DNA from: a virus | Reading direction: 5' to 3' (one strand) | Length of the DNA stretch: 21,210 bases | IMG/VR virus record: IMGVR_UViG_3300021351_000043 | Coordinates: 1 to 21,210 of that record | Part shown: positions 2,329 through 10,900 of the stretch, in pieces | Layout of the letters: each line of letters starts with the position of its first letter | Numbering within the stretch: the first letter of the stretch is position 1 | Made by a program: the position numbers and the translations under genes | Notes under the pieces: generated by a model | What the model saw: only the letters and a program-made list of their open reading frames with translations | Database searches by the model: none | What the model was told of the DNA's origin: nothing

Positions 2329-2757
2329 TCAATGTTTGGTGTGGTCTTTTTGCTTCTGGCCAAAGATTGAATCCAAAAGTTGATAGATCTGTTCTTTGGT
2401 TGGCGAAGAATGTTGACCATCGCATTCCTCACAATCTCCCTCGCATTCTTGTGCATCTGGCACGATTGTGATTTTTTGCGTATCGAAATTGAATTTCATG
2501 TTGGGTGCTTTTTCGAAACCTAGATCGCGCATCAAAACAGCATCCACCGGCCCCCAAATCACCCGATGATTTTTCCGTCGATGGAAATCCAACTCTTGCA
2601 GCTTAAGCTGAAAAGCCGCTTTGGCCAACTCCATTTCATCGCCCAACTTGTGCGCCGCATCCACAAGCTCTTTTTGCTGCGCCATCAACCGCAAAAACTC
2701 TTGTTTGATTTCCTCGTCCTTCTCCTCAAAAATAACCACGTCGTTTTCGATTTTCAT
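2329..2757 (-). CDS. Hypothetical coiled-coil protein with C-terminal Cys cluster, 142 aa
   Basis: Function is unknown. Residues about 12-58 are Glu/Lys/Leu/Gln-rich with heptad-like spacing, suggesting a coiled coil. A middle region (HRVIWGPVDAVLMRDLGFEK) precedes an acidic cysteine cluster near residues 103-110 (CEGDCEEC), which may bind metal. I chose the ATG at 2757, which shares ATGA with the upstream stop and has GGAG eight bases before it. A GTG three codons earlier is possible but less well placed. Confidence 0.75.
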   Translation of the reverse strand: MKIENDVVIFEEKDEEIKQEFLRLMAQQKELVDAAHKLGDEMELAKAAFQLKLQELDFHRRKNHRVIWGPVDAVLMRDLGFEKAPNMKFNFDTQKITIVPDAQECEGDCEECDGQHSSPTKEQIYQLLDSIFGQKQKDHTKH

Positions 2758-3104
2758 TTTGACCACTCCACTAAATTTTCAAACTTGAAAAACTTTGGAA
2801 TCATCAACGCGTGTGCAATTTTCAAAAGCGCAAGCGTTGACGGATCGTTTTGCCACCCAGGCAAAACCATGATAGCGTCACAACGACGCATTACATGCAA
2901 AACCGCTGAATCCACTTTGTCTATTGGTAATTGATCATCAATGTTTTGGTGTTGTGCCTGGGGGCACATCGGGATGAAATTATGAGCGTACAACTGCAGC
3001 ATCATCTTTTCTGCAATTCGAATCCAGGGCAATCGCTCCCAATATGAAGGCATATGGAAAGGGCCAGCAATCAACACAATCAGCTGTTCGTTGTAGCCGA
3101 TCAT
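2754..3104 (-). CDS. DUF4406 / nucleoside 2-deoxyribosyltransferase-like protein, catalytic Glu apparently lost
   Basis: The 116-aa protein has the layout of small NDT-fold proteins. An N-terminal strand VLIAGPF (residues 10-16) is followed by a helix with an Ala-Glu-Lys pattern, then RRCDAIMVLPGW (73-84) matching the family's CD.I..L.GW strand. The usual next segment is G-W-x2-S-x-G-A-x2-E. Here it reads GWQNDPSTLAL, so the position of the catalytic glutamate is L93. That suggests a binding rather than enzymatic role, or a diverged site. The start at 3104 shares ATGA with the upstream stop, and GAGGG lies ten bases upstream. Family-level call only. Confidence 0.65.
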   Translation of the reverse strand: MIGYNEQLIVLIAGPFHMPSYWERLPWIRIAEKMMLQLYAHNFIPMCPQAQHQNIDDQLPIDKVDSAVLHVMRRCDAIMVLPGWQNDPSTLALLKIAHALMIPKFFKFENLVEWSK

Positions 3105-3860: not shown

Positions 3861-3920
3861 TGTCATTCCCTTAGCCGACTTTCCAGCCCACTGTCACCCG
3901 CGAAAGTCGGCTATTTTATT
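3861..3920 (+). ncRNA. Candidate short RNA, unit 4, plus strand
   Basis: The expected transcript from P4 to the terminator at 3872-3920 is about 60 nt and is dominated by one hairpin. There is no protein frame in it. It is convergent with the minus-strand 71-aa gene, whose stop codon falls in the terminator stem, just as in unit 3. Confidence 0.4.
3872..3920 (+). terminator. Intrinsic terminator Td, plus strand
   Basis: A perfect 12-bp stem pairs TAGCCGACTTTC (3872-3883) with 3902-3913 across an 18-base loop, followed by TTTTATT. The minus strand lacks a T-tract after the stem. Confidence 0.65.
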
Positions 3921-4126
3921 CCCTGTGGATCCACTATCAATATGCAACGCCACACACCGCTTGACTCCTCAAACAATGGCTTGATCACTGCTTTAATTTT
4001 GAAGCCCAATCCAAATTCATTCAACAAAAACGAATTGAGCTGAAACACGGCAAACGCTTTCGTGTCTGCAAACACTCGGAGGTCAAGCCGTTCAGGTTTT
4101 TTGTCACTGTTCATCGGCAAGTGCAT
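3911..4126 (-). CDS. Hypothetical protein, 71 aa
   Basis: I do not recognise this protein. It overlaps the end of the sigma4/XRE/alpha-CTD gene by 23 bases in a different frame. GAGGA five bases before the ATG at 4126 supports that start; an in-frame ATG at 4114 is a weaker alternative. The sequence alternates hydrophobic and charged stretches (FAVFQLNSFLLNEFGLGFKIKAVIKPLF) and ends in a strand-like CILIVDPQG. Translational coupling to the upstream regulator is likely. Confidence 0.65.
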   Translation of the reverse strand: MHLPMNSDKKPERLDLRVFADTKAFAVFQLNSFLLNEFGLGFKIKAVIKPLFEESSGVWRCILIVDPQGIK

Positions 4127-5039
4127 AACCTTCCTCAGCCAATATTGATTGTATTTCCTTCAATGTTCGCTCACCTAAATGACGAACGGTTGTCAACAAT
4201 TCGTTTGGAGTCCATTTCAAAAGATCGCCCAAATAATATATACTCATACGATCCAAAGAATTCAAAGCCCGCGTTGAAAATTCAAGTTCATACAAAGGAC
4301 GGTCCCTTTCCTCCTCAGTCAAAACTTGTGATTTTATCGTCTTCACTTCTTTAGGCTCAATGCTCAAAGTGTCTTTATTGCGAACTACCCAACCCGTCTT
4401 ACTTTCGAAATCCTGCAACAAAGCTCGTAATTCTTTCCATTGACTGGGCAAATCCAGATAGCGCATATCCACAGTAGGTTTTGGCTTTTCGTTGCTCATC
4501 GCTTCAATTTGCTTTTTTGTAGGCTTATACAGCAATTCGGCAGGGTCAACCTGTAACAAATAGCTTAGCTGATAGATACTTTGCTTCTTGACTGATTGAT
4601 TCCCGCTCAACCATTTATTTACCGCACTAACACTACTTCCTAAAGCCTCAGCCGCCATACGAATTGTCAAACCTTTTTGCTCAAATAATTGCTTCAATTT
4701 GTTGGCGTCCAACGTCAACAAACGATAATCAGCCAAAACACCTTCAGCATAAGGATCACATTTGACTTCCAACTTTTTGCCTTTTTCTGCCAAATAAAAT
4801 TGGCGTCGAACATCTGTGCATGCTTGATAAAATCGCTTATGTATTTGGCCTGGCGTTGTATCAAACAGCTTAGCAAGTTCAGCCAATGTATGTTTTTCTT
4901 CTTTACCCAATCCTAAGCGCAAAACAATCAAACGCGATTTTGGATAAGACACTGCAGTCAACGCTTTTTCTACCAATGCAAAATCTGCATCGTATCCCAT
5001 TATTTTTTTCACTTTGCCGCTTTCAACTACTCGACCCAT
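4104..5039 (-). CDS. Putative transcription regulator: sigma region 4-like HTH + XRE-type HTH + RNA polymerase alpha-CTD-like domain
   Basis: This 311-aa protein has three recognisable DNA-binding modules. Residues about 20-82 resemble sigma70 region 4 (LIVLRLGLGKEEKHTLAELAKLFD, then TTPGQI and a final VRRQF). The recognition-helix residues that contact the -35 in sigma70 differ: T-P-G-Q-I-H-K replaces T-R-E-R-I-R-Q. Residues about 111-172 form an XRE/Cro-type HTH (LFEQKGLTIRMAAEALG, VSAVNKWLSGNQ). Residues about 246-309 match alpha-CTD (RPLYELEFSTRALNSL, YLGDLL, HLGERTLKEI). They keep the equivalents of the DNA-contacting R265, N268, G296 and E302, and of the sigma-contacting E261. No sigma region 2 is present, so it is not a complete sigma factor. 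The start at 5039 has GGAG seven bases upstream and overlaps the preceding gene by 17 bases. I infer control of promoter choice by host RNA polymerase. Confidence 0.8.
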   Translation of the reverse strand: MGRVVESGKVKKIMGYDADFALVEKALTAVSYPKSRLIVLRLGLGKEEKHTLAELAKLFDTTPGQIHKRFYQACTDVRRQFYLAEKGKKLEVKCDPYAEGVLADYRLLTLDANKLKQLFEQKGLTIRMAAEALGSSVSAVNKWLSGNQSVKKQSIYQLSYLLQVDPAELLYKPTKKQIEAMSNEKPKPTVDMRYLDLPSQWKELRALLQDFESKTGWVVRNKDTLSIEPKEVKTIKSQVLTEEERDRPLYELEFSTRALNSLDRMSIYYLGDLLKWTPNELLTTVRHLGERTLKEIQSILAEEGYALADEQ

Positions 5040-5238
5040 TTTTCTTCTCCAAAAATGATCGCTTCACAATAACCGTTTGCCCACCATGCAAAGGGCACCA
5101 ATCTGGACTGGGAAGCCGCGACCCTTCAGGTTGCAATTCTCTAGCTTCCTCAGGATGCATGCAAAACAGCGTAGCCAGATTGCACAATGGGCAATTCTTG
5201 CAATCCTCGTCCTCCAACACTACCCGATAACTAGTCAT
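5023..5238 (-). CDS. Small Cys-rich putative zinc-binding protein, 71 aa
   Basis: The N-terminal half has C13-x2-C16-x2-C19 and C26-x-H28, followed by W-C48-P-L-H51. That is enough ligands for one or two metal sites. Compact phage proteins of this kind are common and mostly uncharacterised; I cannot assign a function. The ATG at 5238 shares ATGA with the preceding stop, and GAGGG lies eight bases upstream. The C-terminus is basic and Ser-rich (VKRSFLEKKNGSSS). It directly precedes the sigma4/XRE/alpha-CTD gene and may be co-translated with it. Confidence 0.7.
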   Translation of the reverse strand: MTSYRVVLEDEDCKNCPLCNLATLFCMHPEEARELQPEGSRLPSPDWCPLHGGQTVIVKRSFLEKKNGSSS

Positions 5239-5552
5239 ACAATCGGCCCTCGAAGTTTCCGTTCAATAACCTCCCCACGTTCATTTTTGATCTCATCAAT
5301 CGTCATATCATCCACCCATTGGAGCGCTTCAGCCACCGCATAAGAACCGTCTGGATTGCACTGTTGCGTAGATACTTGCACTAAACACCCAGCTTCAGTA
5401 GCCAATGCTTTGGTTGATTTCATCCAACCTTCACTCTGGGAAGATGCTTTGCAAATCAGCTTCCAAGCATCCCCATCACCAAACACTTCAATATCAGAAG
5501 TTACTTTTTTTGCTTGTGCAATCGATGTGTTGTTCCAGGTTTTATCAATCAT
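5235..5552 (-). CDS. Conserved phage protein of unknown function, 105 aa, second copy of a tandem paralog pair
   Basis: The protein shares a clear core with its upstream neighbour: FGDGDA-x-KLI-x-K, then S-x-SEGW, TKAL, QV-x-TQQ-x-N, LQW and a terminal RKL. The pair therefore arose by tandem duplication and diverged. No enzymatic motif is evident, though the shape of the core is familiar to me from small phage proteins of unknown function. I place the start at the ATG at 5552, which has GAGGG five bases upstream, rather than the longer frame that overlaps the neighbour. Confidence 0.75.
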   Translation of the reverse strand: MIDKTWNNTSIAQAKKVTSDIEVFGDGDAWKLICKASSQSEGWMKSTKALATEAGCLVQVSTQQCNPDGSYAVAEALQWVDDMTIDEIKNERGEVIERKLRGPIV

Positions 5553-5563
5553 TTTTCCCTCTA

Positions 5564-5893
5564 TCACTGACCTATTGCTACCAATTTACGATTGACAATT
5601 CGACTATTTTCGTCTTTAAATTCTTTGATACGCACTCCCGGTATCCATTGTAGCGAATCGCTGATCACATAGTTATCATTGGGCGGACTTTGGTTTCGTT
5701 GTTGCGTTTGAACTTGAAGCACACAACCAAGACCATCAACCTGCAACGCTTTGGTTATCTCCACCCAACCTTCAGAGACCGAATAAATTTTCGAAATGAG
5801 TTTAAATGCATCCCCGTCCCCAAAAATCGTTGCATCGGGAATGTCTTTCAGGGTTTGTTTGACTGAATTGTTTTTCCAATTTTGATCCTTCAT
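5564..5893 (-). CDS. Conserved phage protein of unknown function, 109 aa, first copy of a tandem paralog pair
   Basis: This is the upstream member of the duplicated pair, with FGDGDAFKLISK, SVSEGW, TKAL, CVLQVQTQQRN, LQW and NRKLV in the same order and spacing as the next gene. It contains a short Asn/Pro insertion (NQSPPNDN) that the other copy lacks. The ATG at 5893 shares ATGA with the preceding stop, indicating coupling, while its own ribosome site (GTGAGAAG) is weak. Function is unknown. Confidence 0.75.
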   Translation of the reverse strand: MKDQNWKNNSVKQTLKDIPDATIFGDGDAFKLISKIYSVSEGWVEITKALQVDGLGCVLQVQTQQRNQSPPNDNYVISDSLQWIPGVRIKEFKDENSRIVNRKLVAIGQ

Positions 5894-7756: not shown

Positions 7757-7972
7757 TCAATTAGTCCGTCGCGCAACCGCTGCGTTTGCCCACATGATTG
7801 CAGTTTCCAAGGAAGTGATTGCAAGCGATTGCTCCCGGCTTTCCGGGCAAAGATCAACAATCAGCTGGGCAAACTCTTTTGCTTTGTCCTTCAGCTTGAT
7901 GTAGCGTTCTTGTTGGTCCCCCTTTGGTGGGTGGTACGTGAATCGGTTTTCCAATTCTTGATCGTCAATCAT
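7757..7972 (-). CDS. acb2: Acb2-like anti-CBASS cyclic nucleotide sponge, 71 aa
   Basis: The protein carries the pattern I associate with the Acb2 (T4 Vs.4-related) family. ENRFTYHPPK (residues 8-17) is followed by an Arg/Lys-rich helix ending in A-K-E-F-A, then CPESREQSLAITSLE and IMWANAAVARR. Known members form hexamers and bind cyclic di- and trinucleotides made by CBASS cyclases, which blocks effector activation; some also bind Thoeris-type signals. The length fits the family. The start at 7972 has GAGGGG eight bases upstream; an earlier in-frame ATG overlaps the helicase stop. It lies directly behind the SNF2 gene, so early joint expression is plausible. The exact ligand range cannot be read from sequence. 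Confidence 0.8.
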   Translation of the reverse strand: MIDDQELENRFTYHPPKGDQQERYIKLKDKAKEFAQLIVDLCPESREQSLAITSLETAIMWANAAVARRTN

Positions 7973-7983
7973 TTTCAGTCCCC

Positions 7984-10900
7984 TCATTCCTTCCCGCGAA
8001 TCAACTTCAACAGCTGATTCGTCGAATACCCATACAGCGGGCCTCCTTCTTCAAAATCTGCATCCACATAACCACGACGCTTCAAAATCTGCTTTACCCG
8101 CGCATAAGCGATCCTATCTTGCTCAGCTGGCACAGCGGTGTGATCATGGTATTCTTTAGCTGTTTTTGCAGCTTTGCCCCAATTACCGCTTTTTCCCACG
8201 ATAAGCAAGCTTTTTTCTTCTGAGCTTGCAGAAAGCGATTTTTCTGCCTCTTCCTCGATTTGAGATGATTCATGCGCTTCTGGGCCAGCTTGCAGCCCCC
8301 GAATTTGATCCAGCAATTCTTTCGGAGTGAGCCGCTTGTTCATCCATTCAACTTCCTCAGGGGTCAATTGCTTGCCTTGATTCACCTTCTTAGCAAGCTC
8401 ATACTTCCGCAACAAGATCGCGTTAATGTTCGCATCGAAAAGATTGCCCTCAGCAGTAACCCAATACACATTGACTGCGTTCTTCTGCCCAGGCCTATGA
8501 ACCCTATCCTCAGCTTGCCGAAGGTCTGCCGCAGTCCAAGGAAGGTCATTGAACACAACCTTGTCAGCCGCGGTCAAAGTAGCTCCTACCGCCATTGACT
8601 GGCGGGTGGTAACGAAAACTCGTTTTTCAGAGACAAACTCACCTTTGTCATCTTGCTTTTGAAATTCAGCCTTCACATTCTCCCGCGCATTGTCACCCAT
8701 TTGACCATGGTGCAACACCGCTTGATCTCCAAATTGCGCTGCAATATCTTTGGCCGCCTGGACAGAATCAGAGAACACCAAAACTCGAGAATCCGAACTA
8801 TTCAAAATTTCCTTGACTACCTCTTTAGTCGCTGATACCTTCCCCCTCGCAATCTCGTCTTTCAATCGAGAAAACTGTCCAATCATTTCTTCTGCAGGTA
8901 AATCCAAATCTAAATCAGGCAAACCAGCAACGGGTTGTTCCATGATCTGCGTTGTTTTATCCGGCAAGTCCTTCAACACAATCGATTTCAAACGCGCAAG
9001 ATAGATATCTCTCAAATCCATCCAAAGACCACCAATGGTTGAACCTTTGATCTTCTCCTTGGTGTACTCTCCTGGTGCAACCAAATTCAATTGGGTGGTC
9101 AATTCTTCTCGCTTGTTTTTAATTGCTGTTCCCGAAAGCAAAATTTTGTGCTTCATATCTTTAGCAACGGCTTGTACTGTCTTTGTGACTTTTGCTTTTG
9201 GATTCTTGATGCGGTGTGATTCATCAACTACAATGGTGTCAAAACCTGCCTCAGAAATTTGATCCTTGAACTTGGCCAACGATTCGAAATTGACCGTGAC
9301 AATGTTTGAATCACCCAGATCAATCTTTCCCTTCTTTCTCAGCATGGCTGGGGTAAGTTCAGTTCCTTGGAAATGTTCCGGGAAAAACTTTGCAGCTTCC
9401 TGCAACCATGTACGACGAACTACCTTCGGACAAACCACCAAAATTTTCTTGTTGTTCTTGGCTGCCCATGCTAGGGTTTGCAGCGTCTTGCCCAAACCCA
9501 TCTCATCGCCTATCAATGCGTTCCCACCGGTTTCGTCCAAGAAACGCACGCACTCATTTTGATAAGGGAATAGATTGAAACCTGGGGCCAACTTTTCTTG
9601 TACTTCAGGGATTGGCTTTTGTAATTCAGCCAAATATTGATCACGCTCAATTCTTGCTTCTTTCACCCCTTCGGTCACAATTTGAAAATCAGGCAATCGG
9701 GCTTTGATTTTTTCAATCGCCTCTTCCACCAAATCAAGATCATAAGTTTCGCGCCCGTGGTTTTCAGGATTATACTTGGTGATCCCTGAAAGCTGCCCTG
9801 TCTTATTTGAAAACAGCTGATTGAATTCTGGACTGTAAGGGGAATAGAACGCGAACTTCCCATCATCATACCGGATAACGGCAATCGTATTTTTAATTTG
9901 ACGCCTAAGGATACCCTCTTTCACTTCTGTGGCAGTAAGGTCTTTGACCGTTCCATCACCTTCTTTTTCTTGCTTCGGTGGTATCTCTGCAGGCTCCGCA
10001 ACATCAATCCCCAATTCAATCATTCGTGCTCGATACTCATCAAAATCAAAATCGGCTAAATCTCCCTTAGGGATATACCAAGTCCGTTCACGACCATCAA
10101 AACGTGCCCCAAACTCTTTTTGCAAAGCTACATATTTTCGAAATGCTTCGCGATCAATTCGACCATTGACTGGAAGGAGCAAACTTCCAAACGTTTTGTG
10201 ATATTGAGGTTTCACCCCCGTTGCTTTGGGTGGATCACTCAATCCACAATGGTAGTAATCTAGCCCAAAAGAGTGACAAAGTTGCCTTCGGTATTTGCGC
10301 AACACCCAGCGCATTTTTTCCAAATCACCACGCACACCATACCAAATTTGAAAATCAGAACTATTGAATCCCGTGTCATCTTGAACATCATGCATGCGAT
10401 CTTGCGCGTCATAGAGCGCATCGCCCATCTGTTGCAGCTTTTCGATCGCTTCATCGTCTCCAAAGCGTTTTTCTGGAATCTCTTCAGGCTTCAATCTTGC
10501 CAAATCTTTGATCGGCTCTTTCACCGGTTCAGGATTGGGATCTTCCAAATCAAGAGGCGGGGCCGGCTCTATCAGCTTTTCAACCGCTGCCTGGAAGGGC
10601 GCAAGGGCCGTGGGTTCGTCCGGTTTGAATGTCTCTTCAAACTGCTCTTGGCGTTGCTCCAAAATGGCTTGCTGCTTTTCGGTCCCGTGCTCTTTGGCTG
10701 CCTCCACCATGCGATCAATCTTCTTGCGCCGTTGCTCAATCTCTTTGGCGTGCTGGCGATGGAGGAACTTTTGCAAAGCCTTTTTGTTGAAAACGTGAAT
10801 CTCCCCCGTCTCATCATGCTCCACGGTCACCTGCTCACCTTGGATCTTGAGCACGGTCAAATGACCTTCCGCATCCTCGGTTACCACTTTGAACTTAGCT

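Follow-up and report, generated by a model that had tools for sequence, protein, structure and literature searches.

The window analyzed here, a 21 kb virus record taken as the whole stretch of 21,210 nucleotides, carries on its minus strand an open reading frame at positions 4104 to 5039 that begins with an ATG at 5039, ends with a stop at 4104, and encodes a protein of 311 amino acid residues in which a sigma region 4-like domain, an XRE domain, a small alpha/beta linker, and an RNA polymerase alpha-CTD follow one another. The original prediction had placed the gene at these coordinates, which are right; many stops interrupt the interval when the plus strand is read. A Shine-Dalgarno-like GGAGAAG (5044 to 5050, minus strand), read from the sequence, lies 4 bases 5′ of the ATG. 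The frame overlaps both an upstream ORF (5023 to 5238) and a downstream ORF (3911 to 4126) and thus sits in a tight row of minus-strand genes; GC content is uniform across four segments of the gene (0.39 to 0.41), and this evenness makes misassembly, or a fusion made very recently, less likely. A promoter scan around the gene showed no excess, with 5 promoter-like sites where 6.8 were expected. The window also encodes a portal protein (PF04860, E 6.1e-26) with about 42% identity to SPO1-group phages, a SNF2-type helicase, and tail-fibre-like proteins.

Just upstream of the gene, two adjacent small proteins (5235 to 5567 and 5564 to 5893, both minus strand) look like mutual paralogs and share the motif FGDGDA.KLI.K..S.SEGW; family searches with them gave no convincing match. 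A short protein at 2754 to 3104 (minus strand) weakly matches nucleoside 2-deoxyribosyltransferase/DUF4406 (PHROG 355, E 6e-6) and, to judge from that match, possibly serves nucleotide metabolism or counter-defence. The 76 residue protein at 7757 to 7987 (minus strand; FTYHPPKGDQQERY...ITSLETAIMWANAAVARR) resembles the anti-CBASS sponge Acb2: it matches PHROG 1454 at E 1.3e-26, a family annotated as of unknown function, and its best PDB sequence match, a weak one at E 0.013, is "Acb2 homolog 43".

Residues 241 to 308 of the 311 residue protein (4116 to 4319, minus strand) form an RNA polymerase alpha-CTD according to Pfam, alignment, and model. PF03118 matches residues 241 to 302 at E 1.1e-14 and 54.3 bits, against a gathering cut-off of 23.8, so that the C-terminus falls in the family to which it had been assigned; pLDDT in the model is about 91 to 98. 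Both the 265 determinant, through which the domain binds the DNA minor groove, and the acidic 261 determinant are kept. Specifically, the window protein has R, N, G, R, T, and E at the DNA-contact positions R265, N268, G296, K298, S299, and E302, K298R and S299T being conservative; the sigma-contact acids at 259 and 261 are E and E; and one residue is inserted directly before the 294 to 299 DNA-contact loop. The equivalents of R265, N268, G296, E302, and E261 that the original prediction had listed are all found in the alignment. Betaproteobacterial RpoA is the closest among the alpha-CTDs compared, with 44% identity over the domain for Comamonas RpoA. No RpoA model reaches its cut-off with the window protein, only the C-terminal part of which matches; Pfam gives no other RpoA domain, and no alpha-NTD, the domain of dimerization and polymerase assembly, was found in the protein. 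The DNA-contact and 259/261 residues that are kept suggest that this alpha-CTD should bind DNA and could meet host sigma4.

Residues 113 to 170 (4530 to 4703, minus strand) are an XRE domain of the Cro/C1 (HTH_3) type: PF01381 matches residues 115 to 169 at E 6.7e-10 and 39.3 bits against a cut-off of 23, the model has pLDDT of about 83 to 92, and PDB 3bs3 superposes at 1.1 Å. The named top matches in a viral structure library are likewise mostly XRE-type HTH proteins. Between the XRE domain and the alpha-CTD, residues 199 to 229 (4353 to 4445, minus strand) are modeled as a small helix-hairpin segment (helix 199 to 215, strands 217 to 221 and 226 to 229, pLDDT about 65 to 76), for which no family match was found.

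The sigma region 4-like domain (residues 20 to 82; 4794 to 4982, minus strand) is defined by a Pfam match below cut-off, an RpoD profile, and a model. PF04545 matches residues 37 to 78 at E 0.01 and 15.8 bits, short of the gathering cut-off of 24.1, but a profile built from ten RpoD-type region 4 sequences matches residues 23 to 68 at 18.5 bits (single-comparison E 1e-7), far above 10,000 shuffled sequences, the highest of which scored 8.8; with this profile the XRE segment, serving as a control HTH, gave no reported match. The alignment is ungapped and includes the long primary-sigma-type loop GLGKEEKHTL. The expectation that profiles would place the N-terminus in a sigma4 fold was thus borne out with RpoD and not with Pfam. 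A sigma4 profile made from the phage fusions described below matches the N-terminus weakly (5.9 bits, with 24 of 50,000 shuffles as good), and a sequence comparison of the N-terminus with the PDB gave 11 weak matches, 7 of them sigma4 chains. NCBIfam TIGR02937 matches the whole protein at E 2.1e-4; residues 1 to 112 alone have no NCBIfam match at E 1e-3, and because they do not reproduce it we set this match aside as evidence for the N-terminus.

A first model, computed from an alignment of alpha-CTD relatives only, has helices at residues 20 to 29, 34 to 43, 52 to 58, and 63 to 85. With sigma4 relatives added, pLDDT is about 78 to 94 at residues 21 to 80, and region 4 chains head the PDB structure matches of the N-terminal model, the alignment behind it having held sigma4 sequences; region 4 of Thermus aquaticus SigA on DNA (PDB 1rio_H) lies 1.2 to 1.3 Å from it. 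The sigma4-informed model depends on the hypothesis, and the RpoD profile test is independent. From these matches and models the N-terminus of the window protein appears to be a degenerate region 4 fold that needs a primary-sigma profile for significance. The three-domain architecture originally proposed is therefore upheld, with PF03118 and PF01381 above their cut-offs and the N-terminus placed by the RpoD region 4 profile and the model. No Pfam match to sigma region 2 was found in the protein or elsewhere in the window.

All four of the sigma70 residues that read the −35 element are lost, R584, E585, R588, and Q589 being replaced by P, G, H, and K, in agreement with the earlier reading that the recognition helix lacks the residues for TTGACA. 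When the ungapped reading is carried beyond the profile alignment (590 to 603), R599 is kept and both R596 and R603 are lost, the latter to Y. With those four residues gone the domain lacks the usual means of recognizing TTGACA, and since an R603-type residue, which meets the alpha-CTD in cis, is absent as well, a faithful mimic of the natural sigma4/alpha-CTD pair is unlikely here. The original prediction that such a fusion could mimic that assembly gains strength from a wider class, in which the two domains are paired in 54 non-redundant phage ORFs and all four −35-reading residues are kept in 15 of 35 fusions examined.

Evidence for this wider class comes from viral contigs. A first scan with an alpha-CTD alignment gave 23 loci, most of them short non-RpoA alpha-CTD proteins, some of which add sigma4; in one (L016) both domains are above Pfam cut-offs. 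Three further viral-contig scans and a six-frame census brought the fusion ORFs to 80, or 54 once those 90% alike were removed. Sigma4 precedes the alpha-CTD in 53 of the 54 non-redundant fusions, and an XRE domain stands N-terminal to sigma4 in 14, among which L127, L131, L133, L139, and L140 have XRE, sigma4, and alpha-CTD all above Pfam cut-offs. A possible fifteenth XRE fusion (L116) was discounted, its short match covering an apparent HTH_17-type domain. Other fusions do start with a MerR/excisionase-like HTH_17, above cut-off in L038 and L067 and just below it in L037; in L038, HTH_17, sigma4, and alpha-CTD all exceed their Pfam cut-offs. The motif YP[YFVM]N precedes sigma4 in 15 fusions and is invariant in four that were aligned, which suggests that this subgroup shares an ancestor and did not arise through chance fusions. 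The presence of several DNA-binding types on one sigma4-alphaCTD core suggests that the HTH sets the target and that the core does something common.

The four −35-reading residues are all kept in 15 of the 35 fusions examined, R588 in 29 and Q589 in 32. Among 84 to 85 non-redundant non-RpoA alpha-CTDs, R265 is found in 83/84, N268 in 74/84, G296 in 84/85, K or R at 298 in 81/85, S or T at 299 in 79/85, and E302 in 77/84, conservation that the search patterns partly imposed for G296, K298, S299, and E302 and that some patterns partly imposed for R265 and N268 too; acids occupy position 259 in 64/81 and position 261 in 60/81.

The contigs are mostly fragments. A terminase or portal gene (two families searched) is present in 17 of 26 records, that is, 25 with fusions plus the window, so that most of these records are clearly phage; the portal family of the L127 contig is identical to that of the window. 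The neighbors of two XRE-type fusions are mostly unknown proteins; those with a match include an HNH endonuclease and a Thy1-like protein. Only two GenBank phage records, both from human faeces and both unannotated, contain full-length relatives, which belong to one subgroup, and in a search of the open-access literature no paper turned up that describes a sigma4-alphaCTD fusion in a phage, a result we regard as provisional. Dozens of uncultivated phages thus carry similar, apparently undescribed fusions, and these may steer host polymerase.

Related modules also occur in other arrangements. One contig encodes a 409 residue phage protein in which three copies of the alpha-CTD accompany a sigma4 match (L141:8420-9646), adjoined by a 167 residue sigma4-alphaCTD gene (L141:7851-8351), so that these modules form an expanded array here. 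Alpha-CTD proteins other than RpoA that are about 100 to 180 residues long and have no sigma4 are found in many viral contigs (IMG/VR loci L009-L105), and 193 alpha-CTD loci passed in one viral-contig scan; the alpha-CTD-only phage proteins are apparently a widespread and unnamed set of families.

We were unable to find close kin of the window protein itself. Single-sequence scans of viral contigs and species genomes gave no whole-protein relatives; phage and plasmid records held nothing like it beyond single domains; a pattern derived from the loop of its own alpha-CTD retrieved no close relative; and contigs sharing the window's portal gene yielded no ortholog, the closest ones ending before the corresponding place. 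By profile comparison, its region 4 resembles that of RpoD more than that of the phage fusions. What had been presented as a single protein is an outlying member of a broader class, and its sigma4-XRE-alphaCTD order is unique in the fusion set; its three parts may have been brought together independently, or it may be related to the other fusions and have diverged strongly from them.

Comparison with known systems shows how the parts have been rearranged. The alpha-CTD of the window protein has the fold, 265 determinant, and 261 acids of RpoA (PF03118), but the protein is without the alpha-NTD and so cannot enter polymerase as an alpha subunit, and its alpha-CTD is fused to two HTH domains and has the extra residue before the DNA-contact loop. 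The N-terminal domain has the fold, core, and long loop before the HTH of RpoD/SigA region 4, but regions 1 to 3 are missing and P, G, H, and K stand for the −35-reading residues. The standard HTH_3 domain is that of XRE (Cro/C1) phage repressors and activators, although XRE regulators normally have it alone or with a dimerization or peptidase domain, not with sigma4 and alpha-CTD. BREX PglW weakly matches the alpha-CTD part by profile and MzaA weakly matches the sigma4 part, but both are large multi-domain defence-associated proteins and neither, per these matches, joins the two parts. In T4 sigma appropriation, AsiA and MotA make polymerase read a box chosen by the phage in place of the −35 element (PMC7403470). 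The likeness lies in the outcome proposed here, in which a change of what is read at −35 would send host polymerase to phage promoters, and the window protein would be a single-chain counterpart; in T4, however, the work is divided between two proteins and the sigma4 they remodel is the host's, whereas the window protein itself carries a sigma4-like fold and an alpha-CTD.

Two phage proteins, Goe8_c00050 and CcrColossus gp133, resemble the window protein in having an alpha-CTD without an alpha-NTD, but no sigma4 or XRE was found in them and they are already annotated; in gp133 the alpha-CTD is at the N-terminus of a 284 residue protein of other content. Goe8_c00050 (L115:1959-2591 of Bacillus phage Goe8, MN043729.1) is a 210 residue alpha-CTD protein annotated as "RNA polymerase subunit alpha". 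Goe8, a cultured member of the Herelleviridae with a second alpha-CTD place in the same record, is the best laboratory entry point found.

In the RNA polymerase holoenzyme the alpha-CTD sits on UP DNA beside sigma4 and touches it. Sigma4 itself makes contact with both the −35 element and the beta-flap (PMC7403470). Our preferred reading, to which we give roughly even credence, is that the window protein is a phage regulator built from this −35/UP-recognition module of polymerase and recruits or stabilizes host polymerase at phage promoters. The XRE domain would pick phage operators; the alpha-CTD would add AT-rich (UP-like) DNA binding beside them and, through E261 and E259, might contact the host holoenzyme at sigma region 4; and the degenerate sigma4 fold could offer a docking surface, for the beta-flap or for alpha/sigma partners, or could recognize another sequence. 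Host polymerase would thereby be brought to, or held at, phage promoters with a poor −35 element. We infer both the polymerase contact and the sign of the effect, and favor activation over repression on the ground that the two borrowed parts both serve to recruit polymerase; XRE domains are as common among repressors as among activators.

The competing explanations differ mainly in what the borrowed parts would touch. A protein of this kind could shut off the host by competition, occupying −35/UP regions or titrating beta-flap, sigma4, or alpha-CTD contacts until host promoters lose polymerase, and the fusions that keep all four −35-reading residues could indeed bind host −35 elements without initiating, since they have no sigma2; the alpha-CTD protein of cultured Goe8, moreover, is encoded near the start of its record, presumably an SPO1-type terminal host-takeover region. 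For the window protein we consider shut-off unlikely, as its −35-reading residues are lost and a separate XRE domain suggests that it binds particular sites, not promoters at large; in those 15 relatives the residues retained make competition, or −35 binding in trans, more plausible. We also doubt that the protein is a plain DNA-binding regulator or repressor whose three folds only hold DNA and make no contact with RNA polymerase. XRE and alpha-CTD are both DNA binders, the 265 determinant is the best-kept feature of the alpha-CTD, and phage proteins such as CcrColossus gp133 have an alpha-CTD without sigma4, but such a role is at odds with the pairing of two holoenzyme neighbors in 54 non-redundant ORFs.

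Two further readings seem to us highly improbable. Split sigma factors exist (SigO/RsoA of Bacillus subtilis, gp33/gp55 of T4), and one half of such a factor, with sigma4 and alpha-CTD in one protein and sigma2 in another, would be expected to show region 4 without regions 2 and 3, as here; sigma2 matches at E 0.01 do occur in 3 of 16 contigs, two of them above the Pfam cut-off, but none occurs in the window or in 12 other fusion contigs, which is weak evidence in that none of these is known to be complete. The N-terminal domain might instead be an unrelated HTH, the gene merely joining two HTHs to an alpha-CTD, which would fit the sub-threshold Pfam match, the poor match to the phage-fusion sigma4 profile, and the use of a sigma4 alignment for the supportive model; this hardly accords with an RpoD region 4 score that no shuffle reached, with nearly identical helix boundaries in the model made without sigma4 relatives, or with the sigma4 chains among the weak PDB sequence matches.

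A more tentative reading takes in the class as a whole. On this reading, which we hold to be possible though less than probable, phages of several lineages would possess one-chain "portable −35/UP readers", a previously undescribed class in which sigma4 and alpha-CTD are combined with an exchangeable HTH, and these, working in trans with host polymerase, would give the upstream half of promoters a new specificity while sigma is kept; operator reading by XRE would have replaced −35 reading in the window protein, as a derived member of the class.

Phages seize host RNA polymerase through small binding proteins or alternative sigma factors. Sigma4 and alpha-CTD in one chain, with varied DNA-binding domains, would be a modular way of changing promoter choice; the class would open to experiment the question of whether these two domains can direct transcription without being part of polymerase, and would supply ready-made parts to reprogram bacterial transcription.
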